A stretch of 64,000 nucleotides of DNA from contig NZ_FQXT01000002.1 in NCBI RefSeq assembly GCF_900130045.1, positions 186,001 through 250,000 of the forward strand, read 5' to 3'. Of the stretch, positions 1,606 through 13,047 are shown piece after piece. Both the position numbers and the translations under genes were made by a program. Position 1 is the first letter of the stretch; every line of letters begins with the position of its first letter. Under the pieces are notes generated by a model that had not been told where the DNA came from, made no database searches, and saw only the letters and a program-made list of their open reading frames with translations. This DNA is from Leeuwenhoekiella palythoae. GTDB taxonomy: Bacteria > Bacteroidota > Bacteroidia > Flavobacteriales > Flavobacteriaceae.

Positions 1606-2262
1606 TCATGCTAGAATCATTTCGGGAACCTCATCCGGTATTTCGAGTGTTCCTTCGGTCGCTTTCTTGATTTCTTCTACAGAAACTCCAGGGGCGCGTT
1701 CTAAAAGCTTAAACCCTTTAGCAGTAACTTCTAACACCGCCAGGTTGGTGACTATTTTAGTAACACAACCCACACCGGTAAGCGGCAGTGTACAACGCTT
1801 TAAGAGTTTAGACTGCCCGGCACGATTGGTATGCATCATTGCGACAATGATATTTTCGGCACTCGCGACAAGATCCATCGCGCCGCCCATACCTTTCACC
1901 ATTTTACCCGGAATTTTCCAGTTAGCAATATCCCCGTTTTCAGCAACTTCCATCGCACCTAAAATAGTAAGGTCAACGTGTTGCCCTCTGATCATGGAGA
2001 AACTTAAAGCCGAATCAAAAAACGAAGCGCCCGGGAGCGTAGTAATGGTCTGTTTACCGGCATTAATAATATCAGCATCCTCTTCCCCTTCAAAAGGAAA
2101 AGGCCCCATTCCTAAAACCCCATTCTCACTTTGAAATTCGACTTCAATATCATCTCGCACATAATTGGCAACCAGTGTAGGTATGCCAATACCGAGATTC
2201 ACATAAAAACCGTCTTGAACTTCACGTGCGATACGCCTGGCGATTCCGTTTTTGTCTAGCAT
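1606..2262 (-). CDS. scoB: 3-oxoacid CoA-transferase subunit B
   Basis: Beta subunit of succinyl-CoA:3-ketoacid CoA-transferase, which moves CoA between succinyl-CoA and acetoacetate in ketone-body and branched-chain amino-acid breakdown in the cytoplasm. The catalytic glutamate motif SENG is present (E46 N47 G48), followed by the family's VLGMGPFP stretch; the length of 218 aa is normal for a B subunit. It is the last gene of a three-gene operon: the stop of the upstream peroxiredoxin gene and this ATG are separated by a single base, so translation is probably coupled. Its A-subunit partner lies on the far side of the peroxiredoxin gene, which is unusual. Transcription ends at the hairpin at 1558-1583. 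Confidence 0.93.
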   Translation of the reverse strand: MLDKNGIARRIAREVQDGFYVNLGIGIPTLVANYVRDDIEVEFQSENGVLGMGPFPFEGEEDADIINAGKQTITTLPGASFFDSALSFSMIRGQHVDLTILGAMEVAENGDIANWKIPGKMVKGMGGAMDLVASAENIIVAMMHTNRAGQSKLLKRCTLPLTGVGCVTKIVTNLAVLEVTAKGFKLLERAPGVSVEEIKKATEGTLEIPDEVPEMILA

Positions 2263-2263
2263 C

Positions 2264-2902
2264 TTATTTGTTTGGTTGTGGCGTCATTCTCAAGTAAGGC
2301 TTAATTTCTGTGTGCCCTTTAGGGAAAAACTCCGGAATTTGTTCATTACTTACACTTGGCGAGATCACACAGTCTTCCCCATCCTTCCAGTTGGCCGGCG
2401 TAGCCACTTTATGGTATGCTGTCAACTGAAGCGAATCGATCACGCGTACAATTTCGTCAAAGTTTCGACCTGTTGAAGGGGGATATGTCAACGTAAGTTT
2501 GATTTTCTTATCTGGTCCTATCACAAAAACCGAACGTACCGTAGCTTTCTCACTTGCATTAGGATGAATCATATCATAAAGCTCTGCAACTTTACGGTCT
2601 TCATCGCCAATGATTGGATAATCTACAGTGGTATTTTGAGTTTCGTTGATGTCTTTGATCCACTCTCTGTGTGATGCCACGCCATCTACGCTGAGTGCGA
2701 TAGGTTTCACATTACGCTTTTTAAATTCGTTGTGATAATTGGCTACTGTTCCCAACTCTGTTGTACAAACCGGAGTATAATCTGCCGGATGCGAGAATAA
2801 AATCCCCCAGCTGTCGCCAAGCCATTCGTGAAAATTTATAGTTCCTTCTGTGGTATCTGTTGTAAAATCTGGTGCAACATCACCTAATCTTAAATGTGCC
2901 AT
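2264..2902 (-). CDS. Peroxiredoxin, Prx6 (1-Cys) type
   Basis: Thiol peroxidase that reduces hydrogen peroxide, organic hydroperoxides or peroxynitrite in the cytoplasm. The peroxidatic site reads HPADYTPVCTTELG, with the reactive cysteine at C46 and the conserved P-x3-T/C environment. The 212 aa length and the long C-terminal dimerisation part fit the Prx6 subfamily. Another cysteine near residue 174 (EDCVIS) might act as resolving or be free. The gene lies between the two CoA-transferase subunit genes, 38 bases after scoA and one base before scoB, so it must share their mRNA. The reason for that coupling is not shown by the sequence. Confidence 0.92.
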   Translation of the reverse strand: MAHLRLGDVAPDFTTDTTEGTINFHEWLGDSWGILFSHPADYTPVCTTELGTVANYHNEFKKRNVKPIALSVDGVASHREWIKDINETQNTTVDYPIIGDEDRKVAELYDMIHPNASEKATVRSVFVIGPDKKIKLTLTYPPSTGRNFDEIVRVIDSLQLTAYHKVATPANWKDGEDCVISPSVSNEQIPEFFPKGHTEIKPYLRMTPQPNK

Positions 2903-2940
2903 TATTAAATTAATTTTTGGTTGTTATATATGTTTAGTTG

Positions 2941-3645
2941 TTAGTCGTTGTGTTTCCTTACGGTGCGCTGCTCAATGCGTTTCTCGTAGTTTTTACCTTC
3001 AAAAATGCGTTGAACAAAAATTCCAGGAATATGTATTTGGTTAGGGTCTAATTCGCCGGCAGGCACGAGCTCCTCAACCTCAGCAACTGTGATTTTTGCT
3101 GCTCCACACATCGGCGGATTGAAGTTGCGCGCCGTTCCTTTAAAAATGAGATTACCTGCGGTATCTCCCTTCCAGGCTTTTATAAATGAAAAATCGGCTT
3201 TAAAAGCATGTTCCAGTACATACATTTTACCATCAAATTCTCGGGTTTCTTTGCCTTCAGCTACTTCGGTTCCATAGCCTGCCGGGGTGTAGATCGCCGG
3301 AAAACCTGCCTGTGCAGCGCGGCAACGTTCTGCTAAAGTTCCTTGCGGAATCAATTCGACCTCAAGTTCGCCACTTAACATTTGACGTTCAAACTCAGCA
3401 TTTTCGCCCACGTAAGACGAGATCATTTTTTTGATCTGCTTTTTCTGAAGCAGTAAGCCCAAGCCAAAATCATCTACTCCGGCATTATTAGAAATACAGG
3501 TTAGATTTTTCACGTTAAGTTTAACGAGTTGCTCGATCGCTTTTTCCGGAATACCGCTCAGCCCAAAACCACCTAACATCAAGGTCATATTGTCCTCAAT
3601 GCCCGTTAATGCTTCTGTAACCGAGTTTACCGTTTTTGTTATCAT
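2941..3645 (-). CDS. scoA: 3-oxoacid CoA-transferase subunit A
   Basis: Alpha subunit of succinyl-CoA:3-ketoacid CoA-transferase, partner of the product at 1606-2262. The glycine-rich CoA-binding signature [10 protein letters not shown] is near residues 26-35, and a central [11 protein letters not shown] stretch matches the family. The 234 aa length is normal. First gene of the scoA - peroxiredoxin - scoB operon; it follows PBP1A on the same strand after an 84-base gap with no visible terminator, so read-through from the ricT-gldH-PBP operon is possible. Confidence 0.93.
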
Positions 3646-3729
3646 TTTCTCATTTTAGTTTAAGAAAATTACAAAATACGTTTTCTAACCACAATCTTTT
3701 AGCAGTAATTTATGGTATTCTAAAAAGGA

Positions 3730-6069
3730 TTAAAAGTCCAACTCATCTGGCAAGTCTACCTCTTGTGCTGCGCCTTCTGCCGGGGCCGAACAATCTACAC
3801 GGATTGATAAGTTTTCAGGTCGCTCAAAATCTCCTTTTGAAATTTTAAGCTCTTCGTCTTCGTAGCATTTTTTCATAAAAACCGCCCAAATAGGTAATGC
3901 CATTGTTGCTCCCTGACCATAGGTAATTGAAGGGAAGTGCACCGAGCGGTCATCGCCTCCTACCCAAACACCACTAACCAGGTTAGGAACCATACCCATA
4001 AACCAACCGTCACTTTGATTTTGTGTAGTTCCTGTTTTTCCGGCAATTGGATTTTTAAACGCATAAGGATGCCCCGTAACTACATTGTTGTACACATAGT
4101 TATTGATCGCTCCTGAGCGTAATCTAGCACCAGAACCATACTGGGTCACCCCTTCCATCAGATTAACGGTTACGTAAGCCGACTCTTGACTGATAATATC
4201 TTTAGCTTTAGGAACACTCTGATATAAAACAGTACCGTTTTTATCTACGATAGTCGAAACGATCTGTGGCTCTACATGAACGCCCTTATTTGCAAAAGCT
4301 GAATATGCCGAGACCATCTCAAACAAACTCAAGTCTGCTGTACCCAAAGCAATAGAAGGCACTTCCGGGATATTTTCTGTATCCACTCCTAGTTTTTCAA
4401 TAAGATTGATAACCGGTTTAGGACCTACACGATGCATTAAACGCGCTGAAACGGTATTGATCGAGTTTGCTAAAGCCGACTTTAGTGTTACCATTCCCTT
4501 AAAGCCACTGCTAGAATTTTCTGGACACCAAGCTTTTTGAGCCCCCATTTCTCCTGCAGGAATACAGTATGGAATATCTGGAACCGTATCGCAAGGCGAA
4601 AGGTGCAATTGATCTATGGCTGTGGCGTACAAGAACGGCTTGAATGTAGAACCTACTTGTCGTCTACCCGTTTTTACGTGATCATATTGAAAATGCTTGT
4701 AATTGATTCCTCCTACCCAAGCTTTAACTTCTCCTGTTTGCGGAGTCATACTCAACAAACCTGCGCGTAAGAAACGTTTGTAATACAAAATACTGTCGCG
4801 TGGAGTCATCACGGTATCCACTTCTTTTGCACCGTCTTTCCAGACAAAAACCCGCATATCAGTTTTTTTATCAAAGGAAGCCTTGATATCTTTTACCGAA
4901 ATATCCTGAGCGGCCATCTTTCTCCAACGGTCAGAATTACGCATTGCGCGATTAATAATTACTTCTTCTTCCTCTTTACTAATATCTCTAAAGGGTGCCG
5001 TACTATTCTTTTCGTTTTGACGGTCAAACTCGCGTTGAAGATTTTCCATATGTGCGGTTACCGCTTCTTCTGCATAACGTTGCATACGAGAATCAAGCGT
5101 TGTGGTAATTACGAGTCCGTCGCGATAGATGTTGTAATATTCTTCATTACCATCAGCATCTACACCTTTTGGATTTTCTTCGATCCATTCAGACATAAAG
5201 GCTCTTAAGTATTCTCTAAAATAGGTTGCAATCCCATCTGCGTGACCCTCAGGAGAGAACTTGATCTCCATAGGCATTGCGATCAGACTGTCGCGCTCGG
5301 TTTCAGTAATTTTTCCAGTTTCGGCCATAAGCGCTAAAACCGTATTTCTGCGCTCTAAAGACTTATCTCTTGAAATCTCCCGATACGGATTAAACTGTCT
5401 TGGGTTTTTGAGCATCCCGGCGATGATCGCAGATTCTTCGGGATGTAACTCACGAGGCTCTTTGTCAAAATAGATCTTTGAAGCAGAACGAATTCCCACC
5501 GCCTGAAACAGAAAATCCTGCTTGTTGAGATACATTGTAATAATCTCTTCTTTAGTATACTGGCTTTCTAAACGCGCGGCAATAATCCACTCTTTTACTT
5601 TTTGCAGCACACGCTCAAACTTACTGCTAGGAGTGTCAGAAAATAGAAGTTTGGCCAACTGCTGCGTGATAGTACTTGCTCCTCCTTTTGAACCTAAAAA
5701 GGCTACAGCTCTAGCCGTACCTCGCATATCGATCCCGGAGTGCTCATAAAAACGTCTATCTTCGGTTGCAACTACAGCATCAACAAGGTTTTGCGGCAAG
5801 TCTTCATATTTAACCGGAGTTCGGTTTTCATTATAAAATTTACCTAAGGTTTTTCCGTCAGAAGAAAGAATTTCAGTAGCGAGATTGCTTTCTGGGTTTT
5901 CAAGCTCTTCAAAGGTGGGCAGTTTACCAAAAGCTCCCCAAGAAGCAAGAAGAAACACTAAAATTACAGCAGCTAATCCGCTTAAAAACAAAATCCAAAA
6001 CCCTTTGATATAAGGTTTATGATTTGAAGTTTTCGCCTGTTTTGCAGGCTTCTTTTTACTTTGAGCCAT
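3730..6069 (-). CDS. Class A penicillin-binding protein 1A (transglycosylase/transpeptidase)
   Basis: Bifunctional enzyme that polymerises lipid II glycan strands and cross-links peptides on the periplasmic side of the inner membrane. In order: a basic cytoplasmic tail, one membrane helix (about 24-46), a GT51 domain with catalytic E103 in EDRRFYEHSGID and the second motif GGASTITQQLAK, then a transpeptidase domain with S474-TFK (SxxK), S536-IN (SxN) and K678-TG (KTG). All active-site residues are present, so both activities are expected. The 779 aa length is normal for flavobacterial PBP1A. It is the third gene of the ricT-gldH-PBP operon, only 7 bases after gldH. E. coli names it mrcA; the flavobacterial orthologue is usually left without a symbol. 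Confidence 0.95.
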   Translation of the reverse strand: MAQSKKKPAKQAKTSNHKPYIKGFWILFLSGLAAVILVFLLASWGAFGKLPTFEELENPESNLATEILSSDGKTLGKFYNENRTPVKYEDLPQNLVDAVVATEDRRFYEHSGIDMRGTARAVAFLGSKGGASTITQQLAKLLFSDTPSSKFERVLQKVKEWIIAARLESQYTKEEIITMYLNKQDFLFQAVGIRSASKIYFDKEPRELHPEESAIIAGMLKNPRQFNPYREISRDKSLERRNTVLALMAETGKITETERDSLIAMPMEIKFSPEGHADGIATYFREYLRAFMSEWIEENPKGVDADGNEEYYNIYRDGLVITTTLDSRMQRYAEEAVTAHMENLQREFDRQNEKNSTAPFRDISKEEEEVIINRAMRNSDRWRKMAAQDISVKDIKASFDKKTDMRVFVWKDGAKEVDTVMTPRDSILYYKRFLRAGLLSMTPQTGEVKAWVGGINYKHFQYDHVKTGRRQVGSTFKPFLYATAIDQLHLSPCDTVPDIPYCIPAGEMGAQKAWCPENSSSGFKGMVTLKSALANSINTVSARLMHRVGPKPVINLIEKLGVDTENIPEVPSIALGTADLSLFEMVSAYSAFANKGVHVEPQIVSTIVDKNGTVLYQSVPKAKDIISQESAYVTVNLMEGVTQYGSGARLRSGAINNYVYNNVVTGHPYAFKNPIAGKTGTTQNQSDGWFMGMVPNLVSGVWVGGDDRSVHFPSITYGQGATMALPIWAVFMKKCYEDEELKISKGDFERPENLSIRVDCSAPAEGAAQEVDLPDELDF

Positions 6070-7964: not shown

Positions 7965-9002
7965 TTATACTTTCTTCTGAAACTTCAGCTTTTCAGATCT
8001 TCCTTTTTTAAAGATCTTATTGCTGTTAGGAATGCCTTTTCGCAATTCTTTTTGCACTTCATAAGGCAAAGCGATCACCTCTTTACATTCGTCTGAACAG
8101 GTGTGATTCATCGCTTCGGCACACTCGTCACATTGAATGAAAAGTAAATGACAAGCTTGGTTAGCACAGTTTACGTGCGTATCGCAAGGCTTTCCACACT
8201 GGTGGCAATTTGAAATAATATCTTCTGAAATTCGCTCGCCACGACGATGGTCAAATACGAAGTTTTTCCCTTTAAATTTATTTTCAAGCTTTAACTGCTC
8301 AACCTGACGTGCGTATTCAATAATTCCGCCTTCTAGTTGATAGACTTGTTTAAAACCTTTGTGTTTATAGTACGCACTGGCTTTTTCACACCTAATTCCA
8401 CCGGTGCAATACATTACCAATTTTTTGTCTTCTTTGTGATCGCGCAGGTCTTCTTCAATAAGATCTAAGCTGTCGCGAAAGGTATCAACATCTGGTGTTA
8501 CTGCATTTTTAAAATGCCCGATCTCGCTCTCATAGTGGTTGCGCATATCCACAAGCACCACATCATCTGCTTCAATGAGTTCGTTAAAGGTTGCAGCATC
8601 TACGTGAACACCTTTATTGGTAACGTCAAAAGTCTCGTCATCAAGACCGTCTGCTACGATCTTAGGACGCACTTTAACTTTGAGTTTTAAAAAGGATTTT
8701 GCGTCTTGCTCGATGGCGATATTGAGACGTACATTTTCTAAGAAATTAATTCCGTCTAAAAAGGTTTTAAATTCTTCAAAACGTTTTGCCGGCACCGAAA
8801 GTTGGGCATTAATTCCTTCTTGAGCCACGTAAATACGGCCCAGGACGTCCATTTGATTCCAAGCTAAAAATAGGTGATCTCTAAAAAGTTGCGGATTGCC
8901 GATTTTGGCATATTGATAGAACGAGAGCGTCAAGCGGTCTTCGCCTGCCTCATCAATTAATGCTGCTCGTTCTTTTGCGCTTAATTTGTTGTACAGTTGC
9001 AT
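7965..9002 (-). CDS. trhO: tRNA uridine-34 hydroxylase TrhO (rhodanese-like)
   Basis: Oxygen-dependent hydroxylase that makes 5-hydroxyuridine at tRNA position 34, first step to cmo5U/mcmo5U-type modification (YceA family). An N-terminal acylphosphatase-like domain is followed by a rhodanese domain with DMRNHYESEIGHF and the active-site loop CTGGIRCEK, whose first cysteine is the expected catalytic residue. A cysteine-rich C-terminal segment (CHQCGKPC, CANQAC, CDEC, CSDEC) looks like a metal-binding extension and is common in this family. Length 345 aa is normal. Single-gene unit with its own promoter (9034-9065) and terminator (7913-7945). Confidence 0.92.
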   Translation of the reverse strand: MQLYNKLSAKERAALIDEAGEDRLTLSFYQYAKIGNPQLFRDHLFLAWNQMDVLGRIYVAQEGINAQLSVPAKRFEEFKTFLDGINFLENVRLNIAIEQDAKSFLKLKVKVRPKIVADGLDDETFDVTNKGVHVDAATFNELIEADDVVLVDMRNHYESEIGHFKNAVTPDVDTFRDSLDLIEEDLRDHKEDKKLVMYCTGGIRCEKASAYYKHKGFKQVYQLEGGIIEYARQVEQLKLENKFKGKNFVFDHRRGERISEDIISNCHQCGKPCDTHVNCANQACHLLFIQCDECAEAMNHTCSDECKEVIALPYEVQKELRKGIPNSNKIFKKGRSEKLKFQKKV

Positions 9003-9033
9003 GCTATACTTAATTTTAAGGTTAAAAGTGGCG

Positions 9034-9065
9034 CAAAAGTAGCATTTTTAAGTCATTAGCTGCAA
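9034..9065 (-). promoter_or_regulatory. Probable trhO promoter
   Basis: Minus-strand TACTTTTG (9041-9034) matches the TAnnTTTG -7 element, with TTG at 9065-9063 and a 21-base spacer, in keeping with the Bacteroidota -33/-7 layout. The start codon follows 31 bases further on. Confidence 0.55.
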
Positions 9066-9104
9066 GAATAGCCGCGCGTGTTTTAAAACTTGTCTCGCTA
9101 TAAA

Positions 9105-9227
9105 CAAAAAAATGCCCGCGAGTTTTCTCGGGGGCATTTTTCTTGAACGGCTAATTCAGGTTATATATTATTTGATTTCATCAACATAATACCGCTAACC
9201 GCCGTCCAATCTGATATTGCAAAAATA
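9105..9227 (-). ncRNA. Candidate small RNA of about 110 nt
   Basis: Predicted only from signals: a minus-strand TATTTTTG box at 9227-9220 and the strong terminator at 9141-9106 would delimit a transcript of roughly 105-110 nt beginning near 9213. No protein frame fits inside it. A matching -33 element is not visible at the right distance, and I do not recognise an RNA family, so this is a low-confidence inference. Confidence 0.25.
9106..9141 (-). terminator. Strong intrinsic terminator with no assigned gene
   Basis: Stem of 14 pairs with one mismatch: AAAAATGCCC (9108-9117) plus CGAG (9119-9122), loop TTTT, CTCG (9127-9130) plus GGGCATTTTT (9132-9141). The T-run is longer on the minus strand (seven T). 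Neither neighbour ends here: both trhO and recA start on the outer sides. Confidence 0.8.
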
Positions 9228-9437
9228 AGGAATGCCGACACAGCCCTTATTTACGCAATGTATTTGCTTAACTTTCTGCACCATAGCACATAAGGTTTTA
9301 CATTTAGATACATACTTACGCAAGAGGTTGCTTTGGTAGATGTTAAATTTTATTCGGAAATATTCCGTCTCAAGGTGTTCAATCTCTTTAAAAATTCAAT
9401 TAAATAGGAATTTTTCCAATAATTAGGATTGATTTCA

Positions 9438-10557: not shown

Positions 10558-10580
10558 AAAAAATTTTAAACGGCTTACGC

Positions 10581-10650
10581 AACCTTTTTCATCTTAAAGT
10601 ATCTACTTACAAAAAGCAGATAATTTTAATGATGAAAAAGGTTTTTTTAT
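10581..10650 (+). promoter_or_regulatory. Long inverted repeat enclosing the start codon of the next gene, with T-tract
   Basis: A perfect 13-base repeat, AACCTTTTTCATC (10581-10593) against GATGAAAAAGGTT (10631-10643), with a 37-base loop, followed at once by a T-run (10642-10648). It could be the recA terminator or could hide the ATG at 10629/10632 of the lipoprotein gene in a stem. Visible as sequence; the role is inferred. Confidence 0.5.
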
Positions 10651-11045
10651 TAATTGGTTTATTAGGTTTAATAACCAGTTGTTCACTGGATGATGAAGGG
10701 CAAGTGGTGAGCTATGAAGCGCTCCCGATTGCAGATTATGAGTTACCCGAAAGTTTTGTCTACGGCGAGCGCTATCAATTGCCGGTTTCGTTTGTATTAC
10801 CTACAACGTGCCACGAGTTTTACAATTTTGAAGCCGCTAGAGAAGACAGCACCCGTTTTGTGTATGCCATAAGTCAGGTTTTAGAAAGTGATATGTGTAC
10901 TGACACACCAAACGACACGATTTCCACTTTTTTAAATTTCGATGTAATTTACCGCTACACCTACGTCTTTAAAATGTATAAAGGTGATGATGAAAATGGT
11001 GAGCCTATTTATGAAACTCAAGAAGTTCCTGTAGAGCAACCGTAA
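10629..11045 (+). CDS. Hypothetical lipoprotein
   Basis: 138-aa protein with a lipoprotein signal (MMKKVFLLIGLLGLITSC, cysteine 18) followed by acidic residues SLDDE, so probably retained in or sent to the outer membrane. The mature part has two further cysteines (TTCHEF and SDMCTD) that could form a disulfide. I do not recognise a named domain. Two ATG codons are adjacent (10629 and 10632). The gene is between recA and the ECF sigma gene; 17 bases separate it from the latter, so it may be cotranscribed with the sigma/anti-sigma pair and belong to that envelope regulon. Confidence 0.8.
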   Translation: MMKKVFLLIGLLGLITSCSLDDEGQVVSYEALPIADYELPESFVYGERYQLPVSFVLPTTCHEFYNFEAAREDSTRFVYAISQVLESDMCTDTPNDTISTFLNFDVIYRYTYVFKMYKGDDENGEPIYETQEVPVEQP

Positions 11046-11062: not shown

Positions 11063-11611
11063 GTGAGTTTAGAAAAGCTCTTAAAAGGTTTAACTAAGGA
11101 AAAACCCAAAGCGCAGGCCGAGTTGTACACTTTGTACGCTCGCACGCTCTTTGGGGTTTCCCTTAAGTATTCTCGTAATTATGAGGAGGCCGAAGATAAC
11201 CTTCAAGATGCTTTTTTAACCATTTTTAAAAAAGTACATCAGTACAAAGGCAAAGGCTCTTTTGAAGGATGGTTAAAGCGTATTGTGATCAATACCGCTT
11301 TGCAACGGTATCGTAAACAGAGTTTGTTTGAACTTGTAAATGAAGAACAGATTGAGCAGGAAGAGGTTCTTGTTGACACCAATGAGATCCCGCTTCAATT
11401 TCTATTAAAAATAATACAAGAATTACCAGACCGCTATAGGCTGGTGTTTAACCTTTATGTTCTAGACGGTTACCCGCACAAGGAAATCGCGCAAATGCTA
11501 AGCATAAGCGAAGGAACCAGTAAATCTAATCTGGCGCGTGCCCGAATGATCTTAAAAGAAAAAGTTGAAAATTATCAGCAGAGTGAAACCCTACAATCCT
11601 CAACACGGTGA
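11063..11611 (+). CDS. ECF-type RNA polymerase sigma factor
   Basis: Group 4 sigma factor that redirects RNA polymerase to a regulon, normally held inactive by a membrane anti-sigma factor. Region 2 (about 17-88) contains the DNLQDAFLTIFKK and GSFEGWLKRIVINTALQRYRK stretches typical of ECF sigmas; region 4 (about 118-172) contains the helix-turn-helix HKEIAQMLSISEGTSKSNLARAR. The start must be GTG at 11063, since the ATG two bases upstream runs straight into a stop. The stop overlaps the GTG of the next gene by four bases (GTGA), coupling it to a probable dual-membrane anti-sigma protein. Confidence 0.93.
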   Translation: MSLEKLLKGLTKEKPKAQAELYTLYARTLFGVSLKYSRNYEEAEDNLQDAFLTIFKKVHQYKGKGSFEGWLKRIVINTALQRYRKQSLFELVNEEQIEQEEVLVDTNEIPLQFLLKIIQELPDRYRLVFNLYVLDGYPHKEIAQMLSISEGTSKSNLARARMILKEKVENYQQSETLQSSTR

Positions 11612-13047
11612 AAGAGCAAAAAAACATAGACCGCCTGTTTCAGGAAAAGTTTAAAGACTTTGAGGCAATGCCTGATGACAAAGTCTGGGCTGGCATTGTA
11701 GACAAGCAGCAGAAAAAACGCGCAATAATCCCGCTATGGCTTCAATTGAGCGGCGCAGCAGCTGTCTTAGCCCTAATCCTTCTGGCCGGTAACTTTATAT
11801 TCTCAACATCAGATGCGCAAGATGTAGAAGTGGTTTTAGAGGAAACTGAAACGCCTGAGCAAGAGCAGCGCGCACCTAAAACTATTGAGCAAACTGCGAA
11901 CAATGCCGTAGTTTCTTCCGAAGAAAAAAGCACTGAAGATTCTAATTCGCTAAAGAAGGCTGAATCTAATTCAAGTACTAAAGCTACTACTGTTGCTTCT
12001 ACTTCAGCCACGGAAGCAAATCAAGAAAAACATAAAGCATTAAACACAACTCAAAACCGAAACACTTCGGAGTCGAAAAAATCTGGCAGCACTGCTGCTT
12101 CAACAGGCATTGCTACCGCTGACCAAGGCAATGATGCAAATGCTACACAGGACGACAAAACTTCAAACACAGAGCAGAACACAACCGCTATAGCCGCCAC
12201 TGAAAACGAATCCCAAGAAAATGCTGCGGCAGATGAATTACCCTCATTGGAAGAAATTGCAAACGCGCAAAATGAGGAAGAAGCTCTAGCGGATACTGAA
12301 ACTTCAAATACAGCATCTCAAGACGCATCACGCTGGGGTATTACGCCTATGGTGGCTCCTGTGTATTACAACAGTTTTGGTGGCTCAGGGATCGCAGCAG
12401 AATTTGCCGATAACAAGAAAAGTGGCGATGTGAATTTCAGTTATGGGGTTCAAGTAAGTTATGCCATTAACGACAGGCTTACGGTGCGCTCCGGAGTAAA
12501 TAAAGTTGATTTGGGCTACCGTACGGAACAAGTAAACTTTGCCCCCAGCATTCAGGGGCAATCTATTAGTAGTATAGATTATAATCAAAATTCCCAGTTG
12601 ATTCAGGTGGCAGATGCTAATAAAAGTCTGGCTTCTTCAGCAGCAGAATTTGCAAGTAATGCTTCAGTTGCGGGTACGAGTATCAACAATGCCTTGCGTC
12701 AAGAATTAGGCTACATTGAGGTTCCTTTTGAAGCTGAATATGCTTTGCTCAATCGTAAATTCGGCATTCAAGTGATTGGTGGTTTTAGCACCCTATTCTT
12801 AAACGATAATTCCATTTCACTTGAAGAAAATAATAATTTGGTTTCTCGCATCGGGTCGTCAAACAGTCTTAATAATACTAGTTTCAGTACCAACGTTGGT
12901 TTGGGCTTAGATTATAAATTCACGCCTCACATTCAATTCAATCTGGAACCTATGTTTAAATACCAACTGAATGCCTATACCAAATCGGTGAGCGATTTCA
13001 GACCATATTATTTAGGTCTTTACACCGGTTTAAGCATTCGGTTTTAA
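11608..13047 (+). CDS. Probable dual membrane-spanning anti-sigma / outer-membrane barrel protein
   Basis: 479-aa protein with an unusual order of parts. Residues 1-40 are a short charged cytoplasmic tail containing FQEKFKDFEAMPDDKVWAGI, as in anti-sigma tails; 41-64 form one membrane helix; 66-240 are a low-complexity spacer rich in S, T, A, E, Q and N with no cysteine; from about 241 to the end is a beta-barrel-like domain of alternating strands ending in the aromatic SIRF, a typical outer-membrane C-terminus. The layout matches what is described as dual membrane-spanning anti-sigma (Dma) factors in Bacteroides: sigma binding inside, barrel in the outer membrane. It starts with GTG, overlapping the ECF sigma stop by four bases, so the two are almost certainly partners. 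Barrel and sigma binding are inferred. Confidence 0.85.
   Translation: MKEQKNIDRLFQEKFKDFEAMPDDKVWAGIVDKQQKKRAIIPLWLQLSGAAAVLALILLAGNFIFSTSDAQDVEVVLEETETPEQEQRAPKTIEQTANNAVVSSEEKSTEDSNSLKKAESNSSTKATTVASTSATEANQEKHKALNTTQNRNTSESKKSGSTAASTGIATADQGNDANATQDDKTSNTEQNTTAIAATENESQENAAADELPSLEEIANAQNEEEALADTETSNTASQDASRWGITPMVAPVYYNSFGGSGIAAEFADNKKSGDVNFSYGVQVSYAINDRLTVRSGVNKVDLGYRTEQVNFAPSIQGQSISSIDYNQNSQLIQVADANKSLASSAAEFASNASVAGTSINNALRQELGYIEVPFEAEYALLNRKFGIQVIGGFSTLFLNDNSISLEENNNLVSRIGSSNSLNNTSFSTNVGLGLDYKFTPHIQFNLEPMFKYQLNAYTKSVSDFRPYYLGLYTGLSIRF

Follow-up and report, generated by a model that had tools for sequence, protein, structure and literature searches.

Does the ECF sigma factor gene that overlaps the gene for a 479-aa product in Leeuwenhoekiella palythoae belong to a signalling unit whose anti-sigma factor reaches from one membrane to the other, and what would such a unit control? 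The question was raised by an earlier note on the 64,000-nucleotide stretch of DNA analysed here (hereafter the window), and it concerns the Dma and Reo systems, which have been described in gut Bacteroidales and whose sensing and lipoprotein-target roles are open questions there. A Dma anti-sigma factor consists of a tail, a helix, a tether and a barrel, and is encoded next to an ECF21 sigma factor (PMC13088901). Our verdict is that the locus belongs to a real flavobacterial branch of Dma systems with a predicted surface-lipoprotein regulon. The lipoprotein, sigma factor and Dma protein likely form a Dma-type unit that watches the outer membrane and drives promoters sharing one motif, a reading that no experiment on the organism yet supports.

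Pfam recognizes regions 2 and 4 in the sigma gene (E-values of 6.5e-16 and 7.8e-17), whose end shares the GTGA at 11608-11611 with the start of the following gene (Table 1). Residues 259-446 of the 479-aa product match OMP_b-brl_2 (PF13568) with an E-value of 8.2e-8, above the curated cut-off. In an AlphaFold2 model built on a 58-sequence alignment, two N-terminal helices (residues 4-14 and 24-31) and a membrane helix are followed by a stretch, residues 67-237, where pLDDT is mostly below 50, and then by a barrel of eight long strands extending from residue 243 to 478, just before the final residue F479. Means over ten-residue blocks of the barrel are mostly 76-97, with a weaker loop at 341-360 (about 55). 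The best PDB match of the model found by Foldseek is an OmpA barrel (9fzc, E-value 1.6e-8, target TM 0.66), and a second OmpA barrel reaches a target TM of 0.69 (9fzd); no PDB sequence relatives of the product were found at an E-value of 1. The sigma gene, the GTGA overlap, the 479-aa product and the coordinates given in the earlier note all held, as did its claims of a single helix (placed by it at 41-64, and by AlphaFold2 at 43-65), of a 175-residue spacer, and of a barrel-like C-terminus ending in F, to which eight strands and OmpA matches now correspond. It had named a predicted structure without a barrel as a refutation in advance; the structure was predicted, and the barrel was found. 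For the charged cytoplasmic tail that it described, two helices and a conserved sequence are seen, and binding to the sigma factor is inferred. The anatomy itself is shown at the level of model prediction.

Table 1. Predicted and annotated features of the locus, in window positions.
Feature	Positions	Strand	Basis
trhO/yceA-like rhodanese gene, behind the putative short transcript	7965..9002	-	Pfam; homologue in 67/80 named loci
Terminator-like hairpin and T run, end of the putative short transcript before trhO	9101..9140	-	Leader analysis, shuffled control
29-codon ORF ending LDGG, in the putative short transcript	9195..9284	-	ORF comparison across loci
Second promoter-motif copy, directed away from recA	9306..9331	-	Same place in 45/66 named loci
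Putative operon promoter of ECF type, ACGCAACC-N16-ATCTA	10577..10605	+	Pattern in window; conservation
138-aa lipoprotein, SLDDEG after the lipidated Cys	10629..11045	+	Same-place homologue in 54/80 named loci
ECF sigma factor, 182 aa	11063..11611	+	Pfam; adjoins dma in 79/80 loci
Dma-type anti-sigma factor, 479 aa	11608..13047	+	Pfam, AlphaFold2, homologue distribution
Predicted cytoplasmic sigma-binding tail, residues 1-40, two helices	11608..11727	+	AlphaFold2, column consensus, tail profile
Predicted inner-membrane helix, residues 43-65, basic residues before it	11734..11802	+	AlphaFold2
Predicted disordered periplasmic tether, residues 66-240	11803..12327	+	Mostly low pLDDT; homologue alignment
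Predicted 8-stranded outer-membrane barrel, residues 243-479	12334..13044	+	AlphaFold2, Foldseek, PF13568

The tether measures 164-242 residues in the 58 homologues, is rich in E, N, S, T and K, contains about 1.5% aromatic residues and lacks Cys. Mean column consensus over these sequences is lowest in the tether (0.25) and reaches 0.62 in the tail and 0.585 in the barrel. The tether sequence thus drifts but its length stays large, which fits a spacer that has to cross the periplasm. Alternatively, the helix could be a cleaved signal peptide, and the product an ordinary OmpA-like barrel with a linker, the tail being then a separate short anti-sigma peptide. In favour of this, the helix is soon followed by S-D-A and then Q, compatible with signal peptidase I, an enzyme generally known to follow an A-x-A rule. 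Against it, no cleavage site stands out in the alignment when read by eye, the tail is conserved like the barrel (0.62 versus 0.585), basic residues precede the helix, and the spacer never falls below 164 residues, as would be predicted of a tether. We consider the signal-peptide reading unlikely and retain that of a membrane-anchored, tethered barrel, whose spanning of both membranes is inferred. A short helix is also predicted near the end of the tether (residues 214-223, about 12247-12276), within a recurrent KxSIxxAIxE motif of the homologues; this stretch might conceivably represent a periplasmic contact or a cleavage site.

Matches to the Dma protein were found in 164 of 199 Flavobacteriaceae genomes belonging to 198 genera (E-value threshold 1e-4), and in the window's own genome the 479-aa protein has a single significant match. 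Among 80 named records, the closest to the window's protein is that of L. blandensis MED217 (68%), followed by L. aestuarii and L. polynyae (54% over the Dma protein). The order recA, lipoprotein, sigma, dma, acyltransferase (plsC-like) and trpS-like gene recurs in 30 loci, the best of the 164; the lipoprotein is present in 23 of these, recA is out of view in L015, and downstream genes differ in L011, L015 and L027. The 80 named loci were the best of 542 candidates, a choice that favours well conserved cases. The sigma gene lies directly upstream of dma in 79 of them, the only non-adjacent one, L202, resulting from start-codon choice in ORF calling. As some contigs are short, the neighbour counts are lower bounds: recA is upstream in at least 79 of the 80, a plsC-like gene is present in at least 73, a trpS-like gene in at least 72, trhO in at least 67, and the lipoprotein in at least 54, with the promoter core in 77; a recognisable lipoprotein is missing in 26 and the motif in 3. 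This gene order is shown; that the window's sigma factor is the partner of the adjacent Dma protein is inferred.

A search of 296 genomes of the phylum with the family profile (E-value threshold 1e-10) gave 35 genomes with a match, 26 in Flavobacteriaceae and nine elsewhere, six of which were inspected further. L277, L278, L279 and L280 encode a sigma factor and proteins of 468-527 aa, for which Pfam names the barrel family only in L279, slightly below the cut-off, and L278, paired with L277, aligns by profile to the window's barrel. L281 and L282 are other fusions: in both (163-2940 and 1860-4706, respectively) an ECF sigma gene adjoins the gene for a protein of 748-771 aa whose N-terminal tail is related (tail-profile E-values of 2.6e-4 and 5.4e-4). 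Beyond its tail, the L282 protein comprises a stretch resembling a TonB plug, a von Willebrand A domain and a sorting tail for type IX secretion, and might possibly be an anti-sigma factor that reaches the surface by another route. In genus g128 (L283 and L284), a lipoprotein, a small gene, a sigma factor and a more divergent Dma protein occur with the motif upstream. The window's own genome has, at L062 (1144-2458), a further ECF sigma factor with a 254-aa anti-sigma factor that shares the N-terminal tail (profile E-value 1.8e-4) and in which Pfam finds no barrel family. In a tree of sigma factors, those linked to Dma proteins group with three ECFs of the own genome and do not form one clade (3 changes), so that a single origin of the sigma/Dma pairing is not shown.

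How closely is this branch related to the systems of Bacteroides? Dma1/Dma2 with Das1/Das2 of Bacteroides thetaiotaomicron have the same domain order and an adjacent ECF sigma factor, and their own operon is among the controlled genes, as is predicted here (PMC13088901). Dma2 also lies in a three-gene operon, but the third gene is BT_1557 instead of a lipoprotein. The Bacteroides Dma family represses its own sigma factor and its loss raises vesiculation, neither of which has been demonstrated for the flavobacterial protein. Two genomes of the class found via NigD (L292 and L293) encode an ECF sigma factor with a 409-425-aa barrel-family protein, divergent from a NigD lipoprotein, and resemble the published Dma1 and EcfO-Reo systems. 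The window's sigma factor is 38% identical to this type of sigma (E-value 4e-37). Their barrels belong to the same Pfam family as the window's (PF13568, above cut-off), and hhalign aligns them with an E-value of 2.7e-5 but a probability of only 74.5, on two template sequences. No significant likeness was detected between the window's tail and Bacteroides-type tails (E-values of 0.21 and 4.2); the tail profile does find the tails of several Dma-like proteins of other families, not clearly those of Bacteroides type. By sequence comparison, kinship with the Bacteroides type is therefore clear for the sigma factor, suggestive for the barrel and not found for the tail. The earlier note had proposed a relative of Bacteroides Dma, which held as a likeness of architecture and, as to homology, only to this graded extent. 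Its coupling of the sigma factor to the 479-aa protein and its tentative inclusion of the neighbouring lipoprotein both held in the gene order described above, while sensing of the outer membrane, spanning of two membranes and release of the sigma factor remain inferred; the promoter, the regulon and the short transcript on the recA side had escaped it. In the limited literature collection searched, no paper on a Dma1-type anti-sigma factor in Flavobacteria was found.

The operon lipoprotein is predicted to form a beta sandwich, and its homologues share two more invariant Cys. No PDB match to this sandwich was obtained at an E-value of 0.001 or better. Identity with NigD was considered and rejected, as the protein falls below every Pfam and NCBIfam cut-off; NigD_N occurs in 3 of 119 genomes of the class, and in none of the same-family genomes listed (the own genome, G127 and G222). 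The neighbourhood also bears on another rival, namely that the pair is a FecI/FecR-like cell-surface signalling pair which receives its signal from a separate TonB-dependent receptor. FecI/FecR-like pairs are a common ECF arrangement in Bacteroidota. However, a Pfam scan covering the window from trhO to the tRNA-synthetase gene found no TonB receptor, and the anti-sigma factor has a predicted barrel of its own. We regard this rival as very unlikely, and a Dma-type pair as the better description.

A promoter motif accompanies the operon. Its core occurs twice in the window, flanking recA, at 10579-10604 (+) and 9306-9331 (-). Two matches are in themselves unremarkable, since 11 of 100 shuffles reach two, and the case for the promoter therefore rests on conservation. 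Of 29 loci where recA is in view, 28 have GCAACC-N14..18-ATCT between the recA stop codon and the operon, and 23 of the 29 have it in the ACGCAACC form; the sole exception, L025, has GCAACT. In G100 the motif occurs twice in the operon (L156, positions 1691 and 2311): the lipoprotein and the sigma gene are each preceded by a copy. We conclude that the operon has a conserved, predicted ECF-type promoter, ACGCAACC-N16-ATCTA, which is new here. No paper on GCAACC as a Bacteroidetes sigma-factor promoter was found in the limited collection of literature searched. The conservation of the motif is shown, and its reading by the window's sigma factor is inferred.

The motif also follows the system across genomes. 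In 12 genomes with the system, chosen by hand and mostly single-contig, ACGCAACC-N14..17-ATCT has 80 matches versus 10 for reversed-pattern controls. The 20 control genomes, taken from the 35 of the family without a protein match, gave 9 matches versus 7 reversed. Five of the nine sites are in G127, which was set apart because the phylum search finds a divergent Dma copy there; one of the five precedes a lipoprotein gene located 1.9 kb upstream of the divergent dma. No excess remains in the other 19 (4 versus 7). Control genomes are smaller (mean about 2 Mb versus about 4), and per-base control rates are alike. This co-occurrence bears on the possibility that the motif is read by one or more other ECF sigma factors, the Dma pair being one target among many and not the regulator. 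The own genome indeed has more ECFs, of which L062, L068 and L070 fall close to the sigma factors linked to Dma proteins, and overlapping ECF regulons have been raised by the authors of a study of F. psychrophilum (PMC9723704). Against this stand the excess pooled over the 12 genomes with the pair, its absence in the 19 without a match, and the presence of the motif core before the operon in 77 of the 80 named loci. A different regulator is thus unlikely, and we continue with the Dma-linked sigma factor as the inferred one.

What would this sigma factor control? All but one of 73 distinct sites were read in context (G000:C14:13346 was left out, and eight identical copies in G125 were counted once), and 63 of the 72 are intergenic. 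At 42 of these 63 an ORF with a lipobox begins 33-70 nt past the first motif base; the other 21 have no lipoprotein by the lipobox rule. At least two acidic residues occur at positions +2 to +7 in 33 of the 42 predicted lipoproteins, versus none of the seven other lipobox ORFs of the window. An acidic composition after the Cys is the lipoprotein export signal (LES) of Bacteroidetes, for example SDDDD in B. fragilis and SDDFE in F. johnsoniae (PMC5080379), and most targets are accordingly predicted to carry a surface-export signal, their exposure at the surface being inferred. The operon's own lipoprotein accounts for ten of the 42. Once 10 operon sites, one second operon promoter and five sites on the trhO side had been removed by hand, a lipoprotein followed 32 of the 47 remaining sites, versus 7 of 59 other window ORFs under the same crude rule (p 3e-9). 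The rule has its limits: at least one of the ORFs it accepts, at L130, more closely resembles one with an ordinary signal peptide, some of the baseline matches are doubtful, and the window baseline is small (60 ORFs). With G127 added, one lipoprotein family besides that of the operon recurs with the motif in five genomes, and others in two or three. The composition of the predicted regulon is shown; the function of its targets is inferred.

A looser pattern, GCAACC-N15..17-ATCT, matches 46 times in the genome of the window, versus 17 times when reversed. Thirty-six of the 46 were read, and most of them, 29, lie inside ORFs, which counts against the regulon reading. The remaining seven comprise the operon itself, the trhO side, four sites at lipoproteins of 146, 121, 134 and 397 aa, the longest of which contains a VWA domain, and a site with no ORF downstream. 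Some isolated sites elsewhere deserve mention. The eight identical copies in G125 (e.g. C1:1021328), of which the one read (L123) lies inside an ORF, are likely a chance match multiplied by a repeat. In G190 (L112) an lpxB gene, as named by Pfam, begins 36 nt past the first motif base, and in G418 and G568 (L294 and L295) an lpxB-like gene is immediately followed by a NigD gene; a link between lipid A synthesis and these regulons is conceivable.

The second copy of the motif points away from recA, and a short transcript dependent on the sigma factor is predicted to span 9101-9331 (-) of the window. Among 66 named loci whose recA-trhO gap could be read, 45 have the copy in this position, and none has the reversed pattern. 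A terminator-like hairpin follows it in 32 of 43 leaders; in trimmed leaders the count is 31 of 43, versus 0-1 of 43 in each of six dinucleotide shuffles. The second copy was considered as the promoter of trhO itself and rejected, the hairpin intervening between them in those 32 leaders; trhO would be at most a read-through target. The window and 65 loci give 66 places to compare, 22 of which hold a small ORF, usually of 28-30 codons and ending in DGG, EGG, EDG or EGR; 20 of these 22 also have the motif, and the opposite strand gives such an ORF in 1 of 65. The rule on the ending was set after the sequences had been seen, and no DGG-type ORF was found in the other 44 of the 66 places. Substitutions in the ORF tend toward third codon positions (11 pairs, not independent). 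Alignment of 41 leaders shows that many share similar parts, among them GCTATGAA and the terminator. Rfam gave no gathering-level match in the window, and low-threshold matches near 9000-9400 were far below the cut-off. Given the terminator, the ORF in part of the family and the alike parts of the leader, the second promoter likely makes a small RNA, with a micropeptide in part of the family, an inference from sequence alone.

A known regulon of the same family offers a comparison. The SM6 ECF regulon of Flavobacterium psychrophilum also involves an ECF/anti-sigma pair, a promoter at a YceA rhodanese gene and a small RNA, but it differs by its reported -10 CGT box and its T9SS targets (PMC9723704). 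A T9SS link suggested by the SM6 list was rejected, the motif being absent before porU in all nine genomes with a full PorU. With the CGT box, this means that the SM6 motif and the present one are not shown to be identical.

Taken as a mechanism, which is inferred throughout, residues 1-40 would keep the sigma factor at the inner membrane, the tether would span the periplasm and the barrel would sit in the outer membrane. Failure of outer-membrane assembly or integrity would cause the anti-sigma factor to be lost or cut, freeing the sigma factor, which would read ACGCAACC-N16-ATCTA promoters, that of its own operon first, as a positive feedback, and then mostly those of small lipoproteins with a surface-export signal together with the short RNA/micro-ORF gene beside recA. 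A precedent for such control is EcfO-Reo of Bacteroides fragilis and Phocaeicola vulgatus, which has an envelope-spanning anti-sigma factor beside an ECF sigma factor and controls surface lipoproteins, as is predicted here. In P. vulgatus it controls NigD surface lipoproteins and is induced by antibacterial toxins, an induction that the authors read as outer-membrane stress, and Reo is said to span all compartments (PMC9308784, PMC13114119). The targets predicted here belong to other lipoprotein families, and the promoter and inducer are known by inference only. When TamL is depleted in F. johnsoniae, 13 of 16 surface-exposed lipoproteins increase (PMC12045153), which would fit this circuit; no link to it is drawn in the passages concerned.

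A bolder reading, which in our opinion could as well prove wrong as right, is that of a near-core outer-membrane stress circuit of Flavobacteriaceae, in which a two-membrane anti-sigma factor would govern surface lipoproteins together with a small RNA of dual function that depends on the sigma factor; in some members of the family this RNA would also encode a DGG-ending peptide of about 28-30 residues. The circuit would be a Bacteroidota counterpart of sigma-E with MicA and RybB, the E. coli outer-membrane stress sigma factor with small RNA targets. The likeness holds only if the short transcript is confirmed, and there are differences in that RseA, the anti-sigma factor of sigma-E, is not known to have a barrel and the regulon is not the same. 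If true, this would be a sigma-E/MicA/RybB-like response with a different sensor and different effectors. The present work predicts a near-core Dma branch in Flavobacteriaceae, an exact promoter, a testable list of targets and a small RNA, and suggests that the control of surface lipoproteins may be a theme common to distant Bacteroidota. With a predicted branch, promoter and targets at hand, the questions of sensor and effectors would become approachable in fast-growing marine and soil bacteria.
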